From: a virus
Virus record (IMG/VR): IMGVR_UViG_3300038701_000336
Span: 1 to 37,720 of that record
DNA length: 37,720 nt
Direction: 5' to 3' (one strand)
Shown here piece by piece: positions 14,536-24,652 of the stretch. Made by a program: the position numbers and the translations under genes. Numbering within the stretch: the first letter of the stretch is position 1; every line of letters begins with the position of its first letter. The notes beneath the pieces were generated by a model. The model saw nothing but the letters and a program-made list of their open reading frames with translations. It searched no databases and was not told the origin of the DNA.

Positions 14536-15172
14536 CGCAAAAGTCATAATGATTCTTTCGCTGATTTGCGTGATTGCGTTTCTCATTTTGCGTAATGGGT
14601 GCAACCGTCAAGATGTTGGCAATATTGACATTGAGGCTCTGTATGATAGTCTTGAGCGCGTTATAGTTTCGGAATTACCACCACCAGACACGATTGAAGT
14701 TGAAAAAGATGTGATTCGATGGTTACCATCTGCAACGGTTTACGATACAATCTACGTTGACGGTGTAACGAAATACGTCTATAATGACGCGCCAATAGAC
14801 ACGGCAGCGATTCTAAGCCACTATTTAACGCAAGCTGTCACATATATCGACACGATTCGAGATAGTAGCTTACAGGCCGTTATACGAGACACTATATTTA
14901 GAAACAAGATAGTAGGTAGGGGGTTTGGTTATAAGCTATTGCAACCAACTACAATCAAGAAAATTGACAATAGAGATAAGTTCCAACTCATTGCATCATT
15001 CCAAGCGGGTGGAGGTATGACTTATGCCAACACTCCGAGCGCTTTACACGTTGGCGCAGACTTAGGTTTGAAGTTCAAAAACGGCACTTACATGAGTATC
15101 GGTTACATGGCGGGAACTTCGCACTACGCTACGCTAAGAGTAGGTCAGGTTATCCGACTGAAAAAGCGTTAA
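14525..15172 (+). CDS. Membrane-anchored protein, spanin-like
   Basis: The protein has about 215 residues. One transmembrane helix sits near the N terminus (about 7-23, VIMILSLICVIAFLILR). The following part is predicted to lie outside the membrane, with a helical stretch and a C-terminal beta-rich domain (GRGFGYKLLQP, GADLGLKFKNGTYMSIGYMAGTSHY). N-in topology next to endolysin and fibre genes suggests an inner-membrane spanin or phage-encoded envelope protein. The ATG at 14525 is preferred over 14501 because it reduces overlap with the preceding gene. It is convergent with the minus-strand regulator-like gene and overlaps it by 23 bases. Confidence 0.6.
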   Translation: MKIDAKVIMILSLICVIAFLILRNGCNRQDVGNIDIEALYDSLERVIVSELPPPDTIEVEKDVIRWLPSATVYDTIYVDGVTKYVYNDAPIDTAAILSHYLTQAVTYIDTIRDSSLQAVIRDTIFRNKIVGRGFGYKLLQPTTIKKIDNRDKFQLIASFQAGGGMTYANTPSALHVGADLGLKFKNGTYMSIGYMAGTSHYATLRVGQVIRLKKR

Positions 15173-15380
15173 GTATTTCCTTGTAAAGAAACATCAACTC
15201 AGCATCAAAGCATTTGTATTTCTCAAAACGCTGAATAGTTTTCAAACTTCTACCCGTTAAACGCGACATTTCAGATTGAGACATTTTTGACCTACGTAGT
15301 GATGTCAGGTCTTGAACTTTTCCGCACCAATGAAGCATAAAATCAGCCTTAATCACCTCAATATCAATATGTTTCTCCAT
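15150..15380 (-). CDS. XRE/Cro-like helix-turn-helix protein
   Basis: The 76-residue protein carries SLRRSKMSQSEMSRLTGRSLKTIQRFEKYK (about residues 27-56), the five-helix XRE pattern in which SQSEMSRLTGRSLKTIQRFE is the helix-turn-helix. It is probably a transcriptional repressor or activator. It is transcribed in the same direction as the integron-like cassettes and lies just beyond the last attC-like site. Whether it belongs to a cassette is unclear, because no complete attC follows it. Its 3' end overlaps the spanin-like gene. Confidence 0.8.
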   Translation of the reverse strand: MEKHIDIEVIKADFMLHWCGKVQDLTSLRRSKMSQSEMSRLTGRSLKTIQRFEKYKCFDAELMFLYKEILNAFSVG

Positions 15381-15411
15381 GCGTCAAATTTGTCGTTAAG
15401 TTTAGCAATAA

Positions 15412-15449
15412 GTTGTGGTGCATTAAAACGTCCGCTTCGCCACCACAAC
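15412..15449 (-). other. Terminal 38-base mini-cassette or attC remnant
   Basis: CACCACAAC (15441-15449) and GTTGTGGTG (15412-15420) face each other around 20 bases with no ORF. They match as the two ends of one cassette, but the L'-R' half expected further left is missing. It marks the distal end of the array. Confidence 0.5.
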
Positions 15450-15743
15450 AATGTATATAAGCAATAAAAAATACTACTGCTTAGGTTTCTTCAAGGCATA
15501 TTTCTTTTGCCAAGCTTGTCGCTCAAAATCTAAAAATTCAATAAGGTATTCTAATGCTTTTACCTTATCAAAGTCTTTGATTTCTTCTTCTGTAAAATCG
15601 CTTTCTATTTCAAACGTACACTCTTCTGTAGTGTCCATTAAAAACTGCTGTAATTGTTCAAATGTGTATTCCATAATTTTTAGATTTTGTTTAGTGGTTC
15701 TATTCCGTATTTTTTACTGCTCATATACTCGACCGTTATGTGT
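15441..15743 (-). other. attC-like site 7, about 300 bases, with an ORF inside
   Basis: The R'' box is ACACATAAC (plus-strand GTTATGTGT 15735-15743) and the R' box is GTTGTGGTG (plus-strand 15441-15449). The L'' arm just inside 15735 pairs with the L' arm just outside 15449 over about 22 bases with two G-U pairs. The spacer holds the 15474-15674 gene. The site is far longer than usual attC sites of roughly 60-150 bases. Confidence 0.65.
15474..15674 (-). CDS. Hypothetical small acidic protein located inside an attC-like site
   Basis: The 66-residue protein is acidic and helical (MEYTFEQLQQFLMDTTEECTF; FTEEEIKDFDKVKALEYLIEFLDFERQ) with a basic end (KKYALKKPKQ). No family is recognised. Its stop codon touches the L' arm of attC-like site 7, and its start lies about 50 bases inside the L'' arm, so the whole gene occupies the site's spacer. 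It could be an insertion into the spacer or the product of two cassettes fusing. Confidence 0.6.
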   Translation of the reverse strand: MEYTFEQLQQFLMDTTEECTFEIESDFTEEEIKDFDKVKALEYLIEFLDFERQAWQKKYALKKPKQ

Positions 15744-15753
15744 AATTATTTTG

Positions 15754-15978
15754 CTAATTATCGCTTATTAATAAACTTGTTGCGTAACATAAACCTATTG
15801 TTAATACACTAAGCATTAGTAAAGTTCCACGACCTCTAATGTTTGTTGTCATTTCTACAAACCACAAAGGGTCAAAGCTTATAAACCAGCCTATACCATA
15901 AACCACCGCAAAACAACATACACATAACAACGTGTATAAAAAATACTTATTTGTCTGCTTAATTCTTAAATTTTTCAT
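15754..15978 (-). CDS. Cassette gene: two-helix membrane protein
   Basis: The 74-residue protein has two predicted transmembrane helices (about 12-34, YFLYTLLCVCCFAVVYGIGW; and about 52-70, GTLLMLSVLTIGLCYATSLL) separated by a short loop. Its ATG at 15978 lies inside the preceding attC-like site 6, about 50 bases before the recombination point at 15928. Roughly the first 17 residues are therefore encoded by the neighbouring cassette's attC spacer, and no good in-frame start exists after the junction apart from a TTG at it. Function unknown; holin-like or membrane-stress proteins of this size are common among cassette genes. Confidence 0.6.
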   Translation of the reverse strand: MKNLRIKQTNKYFLYTLLCVCCFAVVYGIGWFISFDPLWFVEMTTNIRGRGTLLMLSVLTIGLCYATSLLISDN

Positions 15979-16056
15979 CTTTACTTTTTTTATTTATTAA
16001 TATTAAATTCTGTTTATTTTTAATCGTACTTTTCATACACCCAACCGTTGTAAAAC
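15920..16056 (-). other. attC-like site 6
   Basis: R'' GTTTTACAAC (plus-strand GTTGTAAAAC 16047-16056) matches the upstream end of the same cassette (16266-16275). L'' GTGTATGAAAAGTAC pairs with L' GTATTTTTTATACAC, with G-U pairs. R' is GTTATGTGT (plus-strand ACACATAAC 15920-15928). The spacer is very AT-rich and holds the start codon of the next gene. Confidence 0.8.
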
Positions 16057-16061
16057 ATAAG

Positions 16062-16259
16062 TCACAGACTTTCACCATCTAATTCAGCATCAAGATAGGC
16101 TTGCGAGTTAGCTTCATCAGGGGTCAACCCGTCTTTGTAATAATCCTCATAATGGTATTCATCTACATAGTGTATATTTTCATCTGTGTGTTCTGAATCT
16201 GCCTCATAAAGCAGTCGTTTACATTCCTTTTTCCAATCTTCAAATGGCATTTTCATCAC
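16062..16259 (-). CDS. Cassette gene: hypothetical acidic protein
   Basis: The 65-residue protein contains a Tyr/Asp/Glu/His-rich middle (HYVDEYHYEDYYKDG) and a C-terminal TPDEANSQAYLDAELDG stretch. No family is recognised. It has two consecutive Met codons; the first (16259) gives a leader of only six bases after the R' box GTTGTAAAAC at the cassette edge. The stop lies six bases from the R'' box of site 6, so the cassette is almost entirely coding, as typical for integron cassettes. Confidence 0.65.
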   Translation of the reverse strand: MMKMPFEDWKKECKRLLYEADSEHTDENIHYVDEYHYEDYYKDGLTPDEANSQAYLDAELDGESL

Positions 16260-16265
16260 ATTTAC

Positions 16266-16364
16266 GTTTTACAACACAGGCTAAAATCAAAAGCCCATAT
16301 CAGGTTAGTATTTCAATTTGTGTTCAGTAGTTGGGCTTCAATTTTTAGCCAAACCGTTAGGCAC
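16266..16364 (-). other. attC-like site 5
   Basis: R'' is GTGCCTAAC (plus-strand GTTAGGCAC 16356-16364) and R' is GTTGTAAAAC (plus-strand GTTTTACAAC 16266-16275). GGCTAAAA (16279-16286) pairs with TTTTAGCC (16343-16350), and AGCCC (16292-16296) pairs with GGGCT (16333-16337). The shared AACGGTTTGG sequence next to R'' recurs in sites 1 and 2. Confidence 0.85.
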
Positions 16365-16390
16365 AATAAAAAAATACTACGTTCGTGCAT

Positions 16391-17035
16391 CTAAAAAAGA
16401 GTGGTTTGAATACTCGGTTTATAACTTGCATCATATCTTTTGTTTTGCCCTTTTGGATAAGGTAGTGTTTCAAATCTAAGTTTTTCATTTAATTTACGTT
16501 TTGTTCTTTTGTCTGCAACAAAGTAATAATATCTTGCCTTTCCAGTAGTTAGTTCTATTCTATCAACTAATTCAGGGTTTATTTTATCTTCGTGCCTTTG
16601 GTGTCTTTCTGTTCCATCTTTCATTATGTATATTTTTTGACCTTCACCACCTATTCCAGTATAAACCCAATTAGTTGCTTGGTAAATATACCCGTGATGC
16701 CCTTGTCTTAAATCTGAATAAGATATTATTACTTTTGGTTTGGGTAGCATATTCAGGCATTGGGAAATAAAAAATGAAGTAGTATTCCTTTCAAGGTCAT
16801 CATTTGTAATTAGCCTGTTAAGTTCTAATAAGTCATAAGGTTCCCAAGCCTTCATTTCAATATAATTTGGTGGCATACCAAAAGAACAAACACCCACAGT
16901 TATATTATTTTCGTTTAAAAGGGCAAAACAAAAACTAACACTCGGTATTCTATGAGCATAATGTTTCTTTAAAAACCACTCTTTTACCGTTTCTGTTTTT
17001 ATGCTTTGTACCCTGTATTTATCTTTTATGCTCAT
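16391..17035 (-). CDS. Cassette gene: Mom-like DNA-modification protein
   Basis: The 214-residue protein has the GNAT-derived pattern of phage Mu Mom-type proteins: KKHYAHRIPS (HY at 25-26), a strand pair ending VGVCSFGMPPN (48-57), YDLLELNRL (67-75), KVIISYSDLRQGHHGYIYQATNWVYTG (101-127). Mom adds a carbamoylmethyl group to adenine in DNA and blocks many restriction enzymes; that this protein does so is inferred. The C terminus is basic and ends QTTLF, a weak match to a sliding-clamp peptide. The gene is AT-rich relative to phage genes nearby and fills a complete integron-like cassette with matching ends (GTTAGGCAC/GTGCCTAAC). Confidence 0.78.
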   Translation of the reverse strand: MSIKDKYRVQSIKTETVKEWFLKKHYAHRIPSVSFCFALLNENNITVGVCSFGMPPNYIEMKAWEPYDLLELNRLITNDDLERNTTSFFISQCLNMLPKPKVIISYSDLRQGHHGYIYQATNWVYTGIGGEGQKIYIMKDGTERHQRHEDKINPELVDRIELTTGKARYYYFVADKRTKRKLNEKLRFETLPYPKGQNKRYDASYKPSIQTTLF

Positions 17036-17053
17036 TTACCGTATTTTTTAAAA

Positions 17054-17150
17054 GTGCCTAACAATGTGTATAAGTAATGGCACATAAAACTTTGTAGCTT
17101 ATTTGAAAATGTGTACAAGTGCCACTACTCATACACTCGTCCATTGGGGC
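17054..17150 (-). other. attC-like site 4
   Basis: R'' is TTTGCCCCAAT (plus-strand ATTGGGGC 17143-17150; the last base departs from AAC) and R' is GTTAGGCAC (plus-strand GTGCCTAAC 17054-17062). L'' GTGTATGAGTAGTGGCAC pairs with L' GTGCCATTACTTATACAC over 18 positions with two G-U pairs. This is the best long-stem example in the array. Confidence 0.85.
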
Positions 17151-17163
17151 AAATTGCCTTCGG

Positions 17164-17481
17164 TCATGTTTCTTCATTTAAGATTTTACCCAGCTTAATA
17201 ACGAAATGCTGACCTTTAGCATTATCGCTCCATTCGGGTCGCGGTTTACGCAACATTATCCCCTTACATTCAACCCTCATGGTAGGTGCGTATTTAGCGT
17301 AGCCGTTCCGAAATTGAACAATATCAAAGTCCTTGAAATTGGTTTCATAAACACGAACAAAGCCGTCAGATGTTAATCGTTTAATCCAGTATTCTTTTAT
17401 GTTTCGATATTCTTCTTTCTTCACTCCTGAAGCAATCATATCGAACCATTTCTTTTTTAGTGTAAGGTGTAATGTTGTCAT
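17164..17481 (-). CDS. Cassette gene: ASCH-domain protein
   Basis: The 105-residue protein matches the ASCH (PUA-like) fold: LHLTLKKKWFDMIASGVKKEEYR (about 4-26), FDIVQFRNGYAKYAPTMRVECKGI (about 52-75), and a final HFVIKLGKIL strand. The conserved GxKxxEYR element is present. ASCH domains bind or act on RNA or modified nucleosides; some are RNases or N4-acetylcytidine amidohydrolases. The exact activity is unknown. The cassette has ends GTTGGGGCAAATTG and its near complement. ASCH proteins occur in phages and in integron cassettes. Confidence 0.75.
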   Translation of the reverse strand: MTTLHLTLKKKWFDMIASGVKKEEYRNIKEYWIKRLTSDGFVRVYETNFKDFDIVQFRNGYAKYAPTMRVECKGIMLRKPRPEWSDNAKGQHFVIKLGKILNEET

Positions 17482-17509
17482 ATGTTAAATCTTAAATTCC
17501 CAAAACATT

Positions 17510-17685
17510 CAATTTGCCCCAACGACCGAGCGGTGAAACGCCACTCAATCCAAACTTCACCCATAGAACAAATCATTCCATGAAACAGTACATCCCCCAA
17601 CAGGGCATAAAGCAAATGGTGGCGCTTCAAAAGCTACCGTGGAGGCTGCGCCACCACTCGCTTTATCCGCTCGGTCGTTGGGCGT
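17510..17685 (-). other. attC-like site 3 (long, with internal hairpin)
   Basis: R'' is ACGCCCAAC (plus-strand GTTGGGCGT 17677-17685) and R' is GTTGGGGCAAATTG (plus-strand 17510-17523). The L arms GACCGAGCGG (17524-17533) and CCGCTCGGTC (17667-17676) pair perfectly over 10 bases. A second hairpin lies in the spacer, with GGTGGCGC pairing GCGCCACC (about 17622-17656). There is no ORF within the spacer. Confidence 0.85.
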
Positions 17686-17687
17686 AA

Positions 17688-17882
17688 TTAAACTTCAACT
17701 TTTTTCACCTCGTATTTAACGCCATCGTTTGAGTAGTTGTCTGCTATCGAATTTGCAAGCTCATAGTCGTCAATCTTCAAAACATCGCAATCAGGTGCAT
17801 CAGATGAAACGAAATATCCCTTTTCTTCATTTTGGCAGATATAGAAAACCCACCCACCTTTTTTAGTAAAAATCACGTACAT
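17688..17882 (-). CDS. Cassette gene: hypothetical protein
   Basis: The 64-residue protein starts MYVIFTKKGGWVFYICQNEEKGYFVSS and ends in a Lys/Val-rich strand; it is probably a small alpha/beta protein. No family is recognised. The stop lies only a few bases from the R'' box of site 3, and the start is about 18 bases after the R' box of site 2. Both cassette ends match (GTTGGGCGT/ACGCCCAAC), so this is an intact cassette. Confidence 0.65.
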   Translation of the reverse strand: MYVIFTKKGGWVFYICQNEEKGYFVSSDAPDCDVLKIDDYELANSIADNYSNDGVKYEVKKVEV

Positions 17883-17899
17883 TTTTCATTCAATTAACT

Positions 17900-17996
17900 A
17901 CGCCCAACAAAACCTAAAACCAAAAGCGAGGGCGAGTTTCGCTTTCAATTCGTATGTATTCAGTTCGCTTCTGTTTTTAGCCAAACCGTTAGCAAC
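17900..17996 (-). other. attC-like site 2
   Basis: R'' is GTTGCTAAC (plus-strand GTTAGCAAC 17988-17996) and R' is GTTGGGCGT (plus-strand ACGCCCAAC 17900-17908), a good GTTRRRY box. The L arms CTAAAAACAGAAGCGA and TCGCTTTTGGTTTTAG pair at 15 of 16 positions counting one G-U. The stop codon of the upstream cassette gene lies within R''. Confidence 0.85.
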
Positions 17997-18195
17997 CATT
18001 TTCAAGTCGCTCTATCAGGTTGTTTATCGGTTGGTTTGTAAATGAATCTGGCTTGTAGCCCCCATTAATAACATCTTCCATTAAGTCACGTAATTCTTTT
18101 ATTGTATCTAAATCGCTATCATTAATAAAACGGTTGATAACACTACATATATGTAATGCCTTGTCTTTATCTTCTAAGTTCTGTTCTTTGCTCAT
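17989..18195 (-). CDS. Cassette gene: hypothetical helical protein
   Basis: The 68-residue protein is helical and acidic (MSKEQNLEDKDKALHICSV; LDTIKELRDLMEDVINGG; INNLIERLENGC). No family is recognised. The TAA stop overlaps the R'' box of attC-like site 2, so the gene ends inside the recombination site. The expected matching 5' end (GTTAGCAAC on the minus strand) is not found upstream, so this first cassette has lost or changed its leading edge. Confidence 0.6.
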   Translation of the reverse strand: MSKEQNLEDKDKALHICSVINRFINDSDLDTIKELRDLMEDVINGGYKPDSFTNQPINNLIERLENGC

Positions 18196-18210
18196 TGTTT
18201 TAGTATTTTA

Positions 18211-18300
18211 AGTTGGTGCAGTAATTTATTTAAGGTCGGCACTACACATAGCCAAACCGTTGAGGAAAATCGCCTTCGGTCGAACAAACATAAAACATTT
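18211..18300 (-). other. attC-like site 1, degenerate (start of array)
   Basis: The R'' side is recognisable: CCTCAACGGTTTGGC on the minus strand (18265-18251) shares AACGGTTTGGC with sites 2 and 5. The stretch further out (about 18258-18282) is closely similar to the R'' surroundings of site 4. A short stem TGTAGT/ACTGCA follows, but no GTTRRRY box is found. It marks the proximal edge of the array. Confidence 0.5.
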
Positions 18301-22674: not shown

Positions 22675-23319
22675 ATGGAAAGGTCAAAGATAGAATTGCA
22701 CAACATGGACTGCATGGAGGCCATGAAACAAATGCCTGACAATGCTTTTGATTTGGCTATTGTTGACCCACCTTATGGTATTGATTTAGCTAATATGAAT
22801 ATGGGTACAGGCAAATCAAAAAAAGCGTCTAAAATAGAAAACCGTAAATGGAAGCCTAAAGATTGGGATAAAAATACACCTACAAAAGAATACTTTGATG
22901 AGCTTTTTAGGGTGAGTAAAAATCAAATTGTTTGGGGCGGGAATTACTTTAAACTACCACCTTGTTATGGTTATGTGATTTGGGATAAAGAAATACCTAT
23001 AGGTTTGTCTTTTTCTGATTGTGAAATGGCTTGGCATAGCTTTAAGAAAGCAGCGAGAATGTTTAGATATTCTGCATACCTTGACAAAAAAAGCAAGTTT
23101 CATCCAACCCAAAAGCCAGTCAAACTATACGATTGGCTGTTGAGAAACTACGCAAAGGAAGGCGATAAGATATTAGACACACACCTTGGCAGCGGCTCTA
23201 TTGCTATTGCTTGCCACAACCTAAAGTTTGATTTAGTAGGCTATGAACTAGATTATGACTACTTTAACGCGGCAACAGAACGGCTTGAAAAACACAAACG
23301 ACAATTACAATTATTCTAA
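22675..23319 (+). CDS. Site-specific DNA methyltransferase (N6-adenine/N4-cytosine, beta class)
   Basis: The 214-residue protein has DPPYGI at 31-36 (catalytic motif IV) near the N terminus and DTHLGSGS at 168-175 (SAM-binding motif I) near the C terminus, the beta-class order. HPTQKP at 143-148 is a typical companion motif. At this size the target recognition region is minimal. It probably methylates phage DNA against host restriction; no matching restriction gene is seen. It ends QLQLF, a clamp-binding-like peptide. The motif I reading HLGSGS departs slightly from FxGxG. Confidence 0.9.
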   Translation: MERSKIELHNMDCMEAMKQMPDNAFDLAIVDPPYGIDLANMNMGTGKSKKASKIENRKWKPKDWDKNTPTKEYFDELFRVSKNQIVWGGNYFKLPPCYGYVIWDKEIPIGLSFSDCEMAWHSFKKAARMFRYSAYLDKKSKFHPTQKPVKLYDWLLRNYAKEGDKILDTHLGSGSIAIACHNLKFDLVGYELDYDYFNAATERLEKHKRQLQLF

Positions 23320-23950: not shown

Positions 23951-23975
23951 ATGGGAAAATTCAAAAAAGATTTAA
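23850..23975 (+). CDS. Possible leader ORF overlapping the Mom-like start
   Basis: This 41-residue ORF (MKFYLADTGKTTGQLRC...) runs through the domain 2 hairpin and ends 25 bases inside the Mom-like gene in another frame. In phage Mu, com overlaps mom and its small protein opens the mom mRNA; the layout here is similar but this ORF has one Cys only and is not Com-like. It may instead be an accidental frame within a structured RNA. Confidence 0.25.
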   Translation: MKFYLADTGKTTGQLRCLVGLWRASRSVFKNLSKWENSKKI

Positions 23976-24652
23976 TCTACGATAACCAAACATCTCTTTG
24001 GGGTTCTAAAGAAATAGTTGGTTTTGGTAGTGAGGATTGGCACGTTAGAGAGATTGATAGAAATCTAGCTAACGAAGTCATTGTTAAAAACCATTATTCA
24101 AAGAAGTTTTATAACGCTACATACATTCATTTGGGTGCATTCATAAACGGTGAAATGCTAGGCGTTTTACAATATGGTTATGCTATGAATCCTGCAAGCT
24201 GCGGTAGTGTGGTAGAAGGTACGCAAATGGATGAATACTTAGAACTCAATCGAATGTGGTTAGATGACAAGGCGGAACGAAATAGCGAAAGTAAAGCCAT
24301 AAGCTATTCACTTAGATACATACGGTCAAAGTTTCCAAAAATAAAATGGATTCAAAGTTTTGCGGATGAACGTTGCGGATGCTTTGGAATAGTTTACCAA
24401 GCTGCAAGTTTTGACTTTTACGGTGAACACGTTTCTACTTTTTGGACTATTGACGGTGAAGTTTACCACAATAGCTTAATGACAAGAAACCCGAAACTTA
24501 GTAAAAGTGCAAAGTTTTTACAGGACAATAAAGAACGTGCCACAAGTGAAGAACTAAGACAATTTAGATACATTAAATTCATTGATAAGCGTTGGAAGAA
24601 AAAGTGTTTGCTTGAGGAGAAGCCGTATTTGAAACATTATAACAACGACTGA
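23951..24652 (+). CDS. Mom-like DNA-modification protein
   Basis: The 233-residue protein is close in length to Mu Mom and has the family pattern: KNHYSKKFYN (HY at 48-49), GEMLGVLQYGYAMNP (67-81), YLELNRMWL (96-104), SFADERCGCFGIVYQAASFDFYG (136-158). Mom converts adenine in DNA to N6-carbamoylmethyladenine and blocks restriction; this role is inferred here. The gene follows a structured leader that probably restrains its translation, as expected for a toxic modification function. A second, divergent Mom-like protein is encoded in the integron-like array at 16391. A conserved C-terminal basic region is present. Confidence 0.82.
   Translation: MGKFKKDLIYDNQTSLWGSKEIVGFGSEDWHVREIDRNLANEVIVKNHYSKKFYNATYIHLGAFINGEMLGVLQYGYAMNPASCGSVVEGTQMDEYLELNRMWLDDKAERNSESKAISYSLRYIRSKFPKIKWIQSFADERCGCFGIVYQAASFDFYGEHVSTFWTIDGEVYHNSLMTRNPKLSKSAKFLQDNKERATSEELRQFRYIKFIDKRWKKKCLLEEKPYLKHYNND

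Follow-up and report, generated by a model that had tools for sequence, protein, structure and literature searches.

Does a run of short genes in a phage genome represent an integron-type cassette array, how are its sites and genes arranged, and which enzyme could recombine them? These questions are raised by IMG/VR virus record IMGVR_UViG_3300038701_000336, which we analyzed in its entirety (37,720 bases, hereafter the window), and in which positions 15412-18290 are occupied by short genes on the minus strand. A sequence-only reading had proposed an integron-type array here, with six attC-like sites on the minus strand separating the genes. By its sequence anatomy the array is real, and comprises seven cassettes and the remnant of another, with seven attC-type sites across 15443-18265, i.e., within 2.9 kb. 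The sites of the earlier reading therefore stand, but they number seven, and their asymmetry, covariance matches and breakpoints place attC on the plus strand. At least two attC sites lie close together and a TIGR02249 search revealed no integron integrase nearby, as in clusters of attC sites lacking integron integrases (CALINs). We consider it likely that the locus is an integron-type array of inverted design in a Bacteroidota phage, and that this design is common to many such phages.

The cassettes (first bases 15412, 15735, 16047, 16356, 17143, 17677, 17988 and 18259) and their sites are listed below. The end match compares the ten start bases of a cassette with the reverse complement of its ten end bases, and R1 is a covariance model described further on.

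15412-15734, plus strand: cassette 1; end match 9/10; gene P0007 (15474-15674, minus) inside the attC loop
15443-15741, plus strand: attC of cassette 1, with a long loop; profile score 67.0; 22-pair stem
15735-16046, plus strand: cassette 2; end match 10/10; gene P0006 (15754-15978, minus), its 5' end overlapping the attC
15922-16053, plus strand: attC of cassette 2; R1 40.6 bits, E 5.4e-9
16047-16355, plus strand: cassette 3; end match 10/10; gene P0005 (about 16062-16259, minus)
16269-16362, plus strand: attC of cassette 3; R1 29.2 bits, E 4.3e-6
16356-17142, plus strand: cassette 4; end match 9/10; Mom-like DNA-modification gene P0001 (16391-17035, minus)
17056-17149, plus strand: attC of cassette 4; R1 40.8 bits, E 4.8e-9
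17143-17676, plus strand: cassette 5; end match 9/10; gene P0002 (17164-17481, minus), phrog_625 at 1.4e-23
17510-17687 (core 17595-17683), plus strand: attC of cassette 5, with nested hairpins; core profile score 25.8; R1 14.3 bits, E 0.026
17677-17987, plus strand: cassette 6; end match 10/10; gene P0003 (17688-17882, minus)
17902-17994, plus strand: attC of cassette 6; profile score 29.3; R1 19.7 bits, E 1.1e-3
17988-18258, plus strand: cassette 7; end match 9/10; gene P0004 (17989-18195, minus), its 5' end overlapping the attC
18135-18265, plus strand: attC of cassette 7; R1 33.6 bits, E 3.3e-7
18259-18290, plus strand: eighth cassette, truncated, start only; resembles the start of cassette 5 (GTTGAGGAAAATCGCCTTCGGTCG vs ATTGGGGCAAATTGCCTTCGGTCA)

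Cassette borders were placed by eye before their complementarity was tested. The start (GTTRRRY) proved complementary to the cassette's own R'' box in all seven cassettes, as in integron cassettes, with 9, 10, 10, 9, 9, 10 and 9 of 10 bases matching for cassettes 1-7 (sum 66/70). Only one of 5040 pairings of starts with ends reached this sum, namely the true one (the mean over pairings was 39.3). Among random GTT/AAC pairs drawn elsewhere in this genome, 0.095% had at least 9 matches. The border pair quoted in the sequence-only reading (GTTAGGCAC at 17062-17054 and GTGCCTAAC at 16364-16356) is found exactly there, and complementarity of the borders greatly exceeds chance.

The sites themselves were detected in two ways. 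A profile made from other phages identified five sites of the array, with scores from 25.8 to 67.0, while 60 shuffled genomes yielded a mean of 0.1 site at ≥25 with the same profile (maximum 31.5). R1, for which 11 attC sites from a single Algibacter chromosome were the only training sequences, was run with filters off on window positions 13-21 kb, and the E-values given by the tool are rough. It found six of the seven sites, all on the plus strand (four with E≤5e-6, one with 1e-3 and one with 0.03), its best minus-strand match, of 18.5 bits, being the reverse of the 17056-17149 site. The site at 15443-15741, which has an open reading frame (ORF) in its loop, was missed by R1 and rests on its profile score and border. 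R1 does not match the canonical attC sites of Shewanella M16-3 or TJE1. The profile and covariance models took the place of a loose box-plus-stem finder, which yielded chance sites by the dozen; class 1 integron plasmid regions were tried as training data, and contained too few attC sites. Predicted folding favored the gene-sense strand in all six sites folded, by 0.2 to 3.6 kcal/mol. Two of the six fold no better than shuffled DNA, and the core of the cassette 5 attC has a DNA fold z of -4.4 on the gene-sense strand.

Being hairpins between short genes, the sites could be taken not for recombination sites but for ordinary hairpins, or transcription terminators, in the intergenic DNA of an early phage region. 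However, terminators predict neither conserved asymmetric spacers and boxes, nor detection by a model from a bacterial chromosome, nor end pairing that is specific to each gene; the end pairing and the covariance matches refute this explanation for practical purposes, and we assign it a negligible probability. The earlier statement that the sites separate the genes needs modification, since some attC halves lie within coding sequence (P0004 and P0006) and P0007 lies wholly in an attC loop. Among viral attC sites about 200 bases long, some loops could hold a small ORF such as this one. Apparent half-sites, seen in Cellulophaga phages and at 18260, were, where checked, full sites with one half within coding sequence.

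The strand on which the sites lie determines how the cassettes are built. In bacterial chromosomes, sites of this type read RYYYAAC, 3 nt, stem, loop, stem, 6 nt, GTTRRRY on the same strand as the gene, and are located 3' of it. The window sites have the same asymmetry when read on the plus strand, against genes on the minus strand. Because this asymmetry and the breakpoints described below both put the attC top strand on plus, the cassettes are, as judged from these features, inverted relative to their own genes. An attC precedes its gene on the 5' side, instead of standing at the 3' end of a co-oriented gene as in an integron cassette. Searching IMG/VR for the oriented motif without regard to genes gave 57 contigs. 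Among the viral sites scored, 110 had opposed genes on both sides and one had co-oriented genes, counts that are not independent events because many IMG/VR contigs overlap in content. The bacterial sites (Algibacter and five other loci) included 19 co-oriented and no opposed cases, and ORFs between sites at 15 chromosomal loci amounted to 125 kb co-oriented vs 4.3 kb opposed. The inverted form also occurs in cultured isolates, namely Polaribacter phage P12002L and four Cellulophaga phages.

A standard CALIN acquired from a host integron would instead be read in gene orientation, with attC 3' of the gene and the cut made in the R' box of the minus strand. The complementarity of the borders is symmetrical and fits this arrangement as well, and published phage CALINs have been described in gene orientation. 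Yet the site asymmetry and covariance score are found on the plus strand only, the breakpoints fall at RYYY/AAC, and the cut would split the coding sequences of P0006 and P0004. We therefore regard the gene-oriented alternative as improbable and retain the inverted design.

Comparison with related phages located the breakpoints directly. The window matches phage L006 over 103 bases at 99% and phage L014 over 109 bases at 92%, and both matches start exactly at TAAC; these breakpoints imply that an attC moves together with the gene that follows it on the gene strand, which is what inversion predicts. The attC and leader of cassette 6 are 99% identical to those in L006, where the gene is unrelated, and the attC and leader of cassette 3 are 92% identical to those in L014, with another gene behind them. 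The attC and gene start of cassette 2 show 78% identity to Cellulophaga phage phi13:2. In phages phi13:2, phi19:3, phi18:3 and phi46:3, a constant array-end sequence (AACAATGTTATATAAC) gives way precisely at RYYY/AAC to sequence that differs among the four, and the position of one cassette among its neighbors has changed. Whole cassettes recur in different contexts in 13 pairs, from contigs that are partly redundant.

Shared attC, leader and last cassette bases surround unrelated ORFs in window 17677-17994 vs L006 6459-6902, and again in window 16047-16362 vs L014 1594-2200. Nearly identical attC sites accompany non-homologous genes in 21 site pairs.

One end of the array provides a common anchor for these comparisons:

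15150-15380, minus strand: helix-turn-helix (HTH) gene P0008, the apparent phage anchor at the attI-side array end; 68% identity to a homologue in the same place beside the L014 array
15381-15420, plus strand: attI-like array end, where cassettes join at GTT (15412); 31/40 bases common to L014

The stretch in common with L014 begins exactly at CACAAC and runs up to the start codon (ATG) of the HTH gene, and the sequence differs beyond. L014 thus has the HTH homologue (68%) and the same array end with a different adjacent cassette, i.e., the same locus with other content. The comparison of cassette content that the sequence-only reading had called for, together with the independent covariance model and the end complementarity, sustains its central claim of an integron-type array in a phage; its interpretation as a whole is partly supported. 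Because there is no clear L box, attI at 15381-15420 is only putative.

Several observations weigh against an array that is still active. The R' box of the cassette 4 attC is mutated, so that the cassette start at 17143 reads ATT instead of GTT, and given this change the site is perhaps inactive. In the Cellulophaga phages some breakpoints coincide with a shared 5' leader and not with attC. The window has neither a recombinase gene nor a clear attI. Viral arrays are also partly degenerate, with at least 7 complementary bases in 24% of neighboring detected site pairs (vs 2.4% of non-neighboring viral pairs). All of these, the missing attI apart, would suit a fossil array that was once recombined by an integrase and is now inherited as a block, with exchange only by homologous recombination between phages. 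On the other hand, five of the six conserved junctions examined closely fall exactly at AAC, and the whole cassettes found in different contexts also speak against block inheritance. We judge the fossil scenario unlikely, if less so than the gene-oriented one, and the array of inverted, exchangeable cassettes remains our preferred explanation.

To what machinery might such cassettes belong? When genomes were scanned with a single attC motif taken from the window, an Algibacter genome emerged (listed as an uncultured isolate) that has an IntI-like gene and, after it, an attC array of at least 13 sites. Each of the 12 pairs of consecutive sites has 8-10 complementary end bases (mean for non-neighbors, 4.7), and because of this complementarity the array is an integron by anatomy. 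R1 matches with E≤1e-6 are present in 130 of 149 Flavobacteriaceae genomes, with at least 22 candidates in the richest, and in one of 22 genomes outside Bacteroidota. That single match (G216:C38:28541-28671) is in a Trichodesmium assembly and may be on a contaminant contig. Flavobacteriaceae, the likely hosts of these phages, have long attC arrays at chromosomal loci L105 and L205-L215, with at least 22 sites in 20 kb at the upper end. These arrays seem to have been overlooked, since surveys in the literature list few integrons for the phylum and hardly any for such genomes.

An IntI-like gene lies beside the array in four genomes (the Algibacter, Aequorivita, UBA6772 and Owenweeksia loci); several other homologues are at contig ends or have no array in reach. 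Like an IntI gene, that of the Flavobacteriaceae recombinase adjoins attI and a cassette array. The Algibacter protein, however, scores 212.8 bits against TIGR02249, in two pieces, vs a cut-off of 265 and 394.4 for a Shewanella IntI, and about 45 IntI-specific residues are missing from its alignment. Since it falls below the cut-off and has no IntI-specific domain, we do not call it IntI. None of 33 genomes searched contained an IntI above the cut-off, a set that is no random sample because it was chosen through one attC motif. Border complementarity, which the sequence-only reading took as specific to IntI, consequently does not identify the enzyme: matching chromosomal arrays adjoin a recombinase without the IntI-specific domain.

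No IntI-like recombinase gene was found in P12002L, the Cellulophaga phages or the window (TIGR02249 search), in line with the earlier remark that no IntI is visible in the latter. Viral contigs contained no close relatives of the Algibacter recombinase, and a shorter IntI-like homologue occurs in three viral records. In an IMG/VR virus of 266 kb this homologue lies near one end (L203 14964-17846), beside an attI-like sequence and a row of inverted cassettes whose ends are complementary, the whole forming a candidate phage-encoded integron. The gp038 tyrosine recombinase beside the Cellulophaga arrays was considered as the integrase; it is a Phage_int_SAM_5 protein with no NCBIfam match at 1e-10, and we treat it as an ordinary phage integrase.

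The sequence-only reading held phage-borne arrays to be little described, but Qi et al. 2023 (PMC9892861) had already reported phage CALINs and recombination of phage attC sites by IntI1, one of them from P12002L. As in the window, these are attC clusters without an integrase, and P12002L has the same site type with a Mom-like gene downstream of attC. Recombination of this site type by an integron integrase is published only for P12002L attC2 with IntI1 (PMC9892861), a site that appears to correspond to L017 30005-30059. Qi et al. do not discuss systematic gene/attC inversion, Flavobacteriaceae arrays or Cellulophaga phages. Sedentary chromosomal integrons such as the Vibrio superintegron, and those in Flavobacteriaceae chromosomes, likewise have long arrays of attC cassettes with complementary ends, but phage genes are antiparallel to attC, and the neighboring recombinase lacks the IntI-specific domain. 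Treponema integrons also have one oddly oriented component, which is the integrase gene (PMC9668308) and not the cassette genes relative to attC. For Bacteroidetes proper, IntegronFinder 2.0 (PMC9024848) names one complete integron, in Salinibacter; a review (PMC8618304) lists Bacteroidota among phyla with integrons, and PMC8352920 offers taxon-specific attC models, none of them for this phylum. We found no literature on Flavobacteriaceae integrons or inverted cassettes in a search that excluded preprints and most subscription journals. A phage CALIN is not new in itself; the inverted orientation in phages and the widespread Flavobacteriaceae arrays look new, provisionally.

Elsewhere in the window are genes for portal, head protease, terminase, Erf and a DnaC-like protein, on the plus strand. 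Its TerL is nearest to those of Flavobacterium and Elizabethkingia phages, and its portal protein to those of Bacteroides and Cellulophaga phages. Megablast of the array region against 50,697 phage records gave no match and hence no close relative, a distant-homology search gave short matches only, and an Rfam search found no matching family.

Most cassettes encode small proteins of unknown function, P0002 (phrog_625) among them. P0001 of cassette 4 encodes a Mom-family DNA-modification protein (Pfam Mom, 3.4e-31; phrog_1384, 3.8e-51). The Mom-like gene of P12002L is directly downstream of an attC, Mom homologues are on attC-bearing contigs of three IMG/VR phages, and the arrays of P12002L and the Cellulophaga phages have genes annotated as methyltransferases. 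A counter-restriction role for these cassettes is plausible. The window also has a second Mom-like gene (23951-24652, plus; phrog_1384, 5.5e-58) and a DNA methyltransferase (22675-23319, plus), both amid ordinary phage genes, and the cassette Mom is therefore an additional copy. When 148 phage cassette ORFs were compared with 299 kb of chromosomal array regions, one had a homologue there; by contrast, two or more of the viral loci searched gave matches for 85 of them (own locus counted, contigs partly redundant), so that the phage cassette pool looks separate. One idea is that inverted cassettes would be antisense in the partner array, which could explain the separation.

In the mechanism that we propose, a cassette would be a unit of DNA that has G^TTRRRY at its borders and attC on the 5' side of the gene, the reading direction of the gene being that of the attC bottom strand. 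Such units would be gained, lost and reordered through crossover at G^TT of the plus strand (RYYY/AAC on the gene strand). Because the window encodes no detectable IntI-like recombinase, we infer that the enzyme is most likely supplied in trans during infection by the host, as an IntI-like tyrosine recombinase of the type beside Flavobacteriaceae arrays, with a few related viruses carrying their own copy. The array would serve as an exchangeable set of accessory genes, such as the DNA-modification gene of this phage and the methyltransferases of sister arrays, and its benefit would most plausibly be evasion of host restriction.

With somewhat less assurance, we lean towards a broader proposal: that a second kind of integron is widespread in Bacteroidota, has gone largely unnoticed in current surveys and is operated by an IntI-like recombinase lacking the IntI-specific domain, and that the phages of this phylum maintain inverted cassettes for this machinery as a pool of their own. 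Phages would trade these cassettes with one another; in a swap with the pool of the host, they would be antisense and therefore silent. The current view is that integrons are rare in Bacteroidota and phage arrays occasional passengers. The natural variants with the same attC and borders around different genes may bear on how cassettes are made. If the present evidence holds, most Flavobacteriaceae would carry integron arrays under an atypical recombinase, the need of the IntI-specific domain for cassette recombination would become testable, and Flavobacteriaceae phages would use the same kind of site with inverted cassettes, anti-restriction candidates included, as a modular way to change their counter-defense genes.

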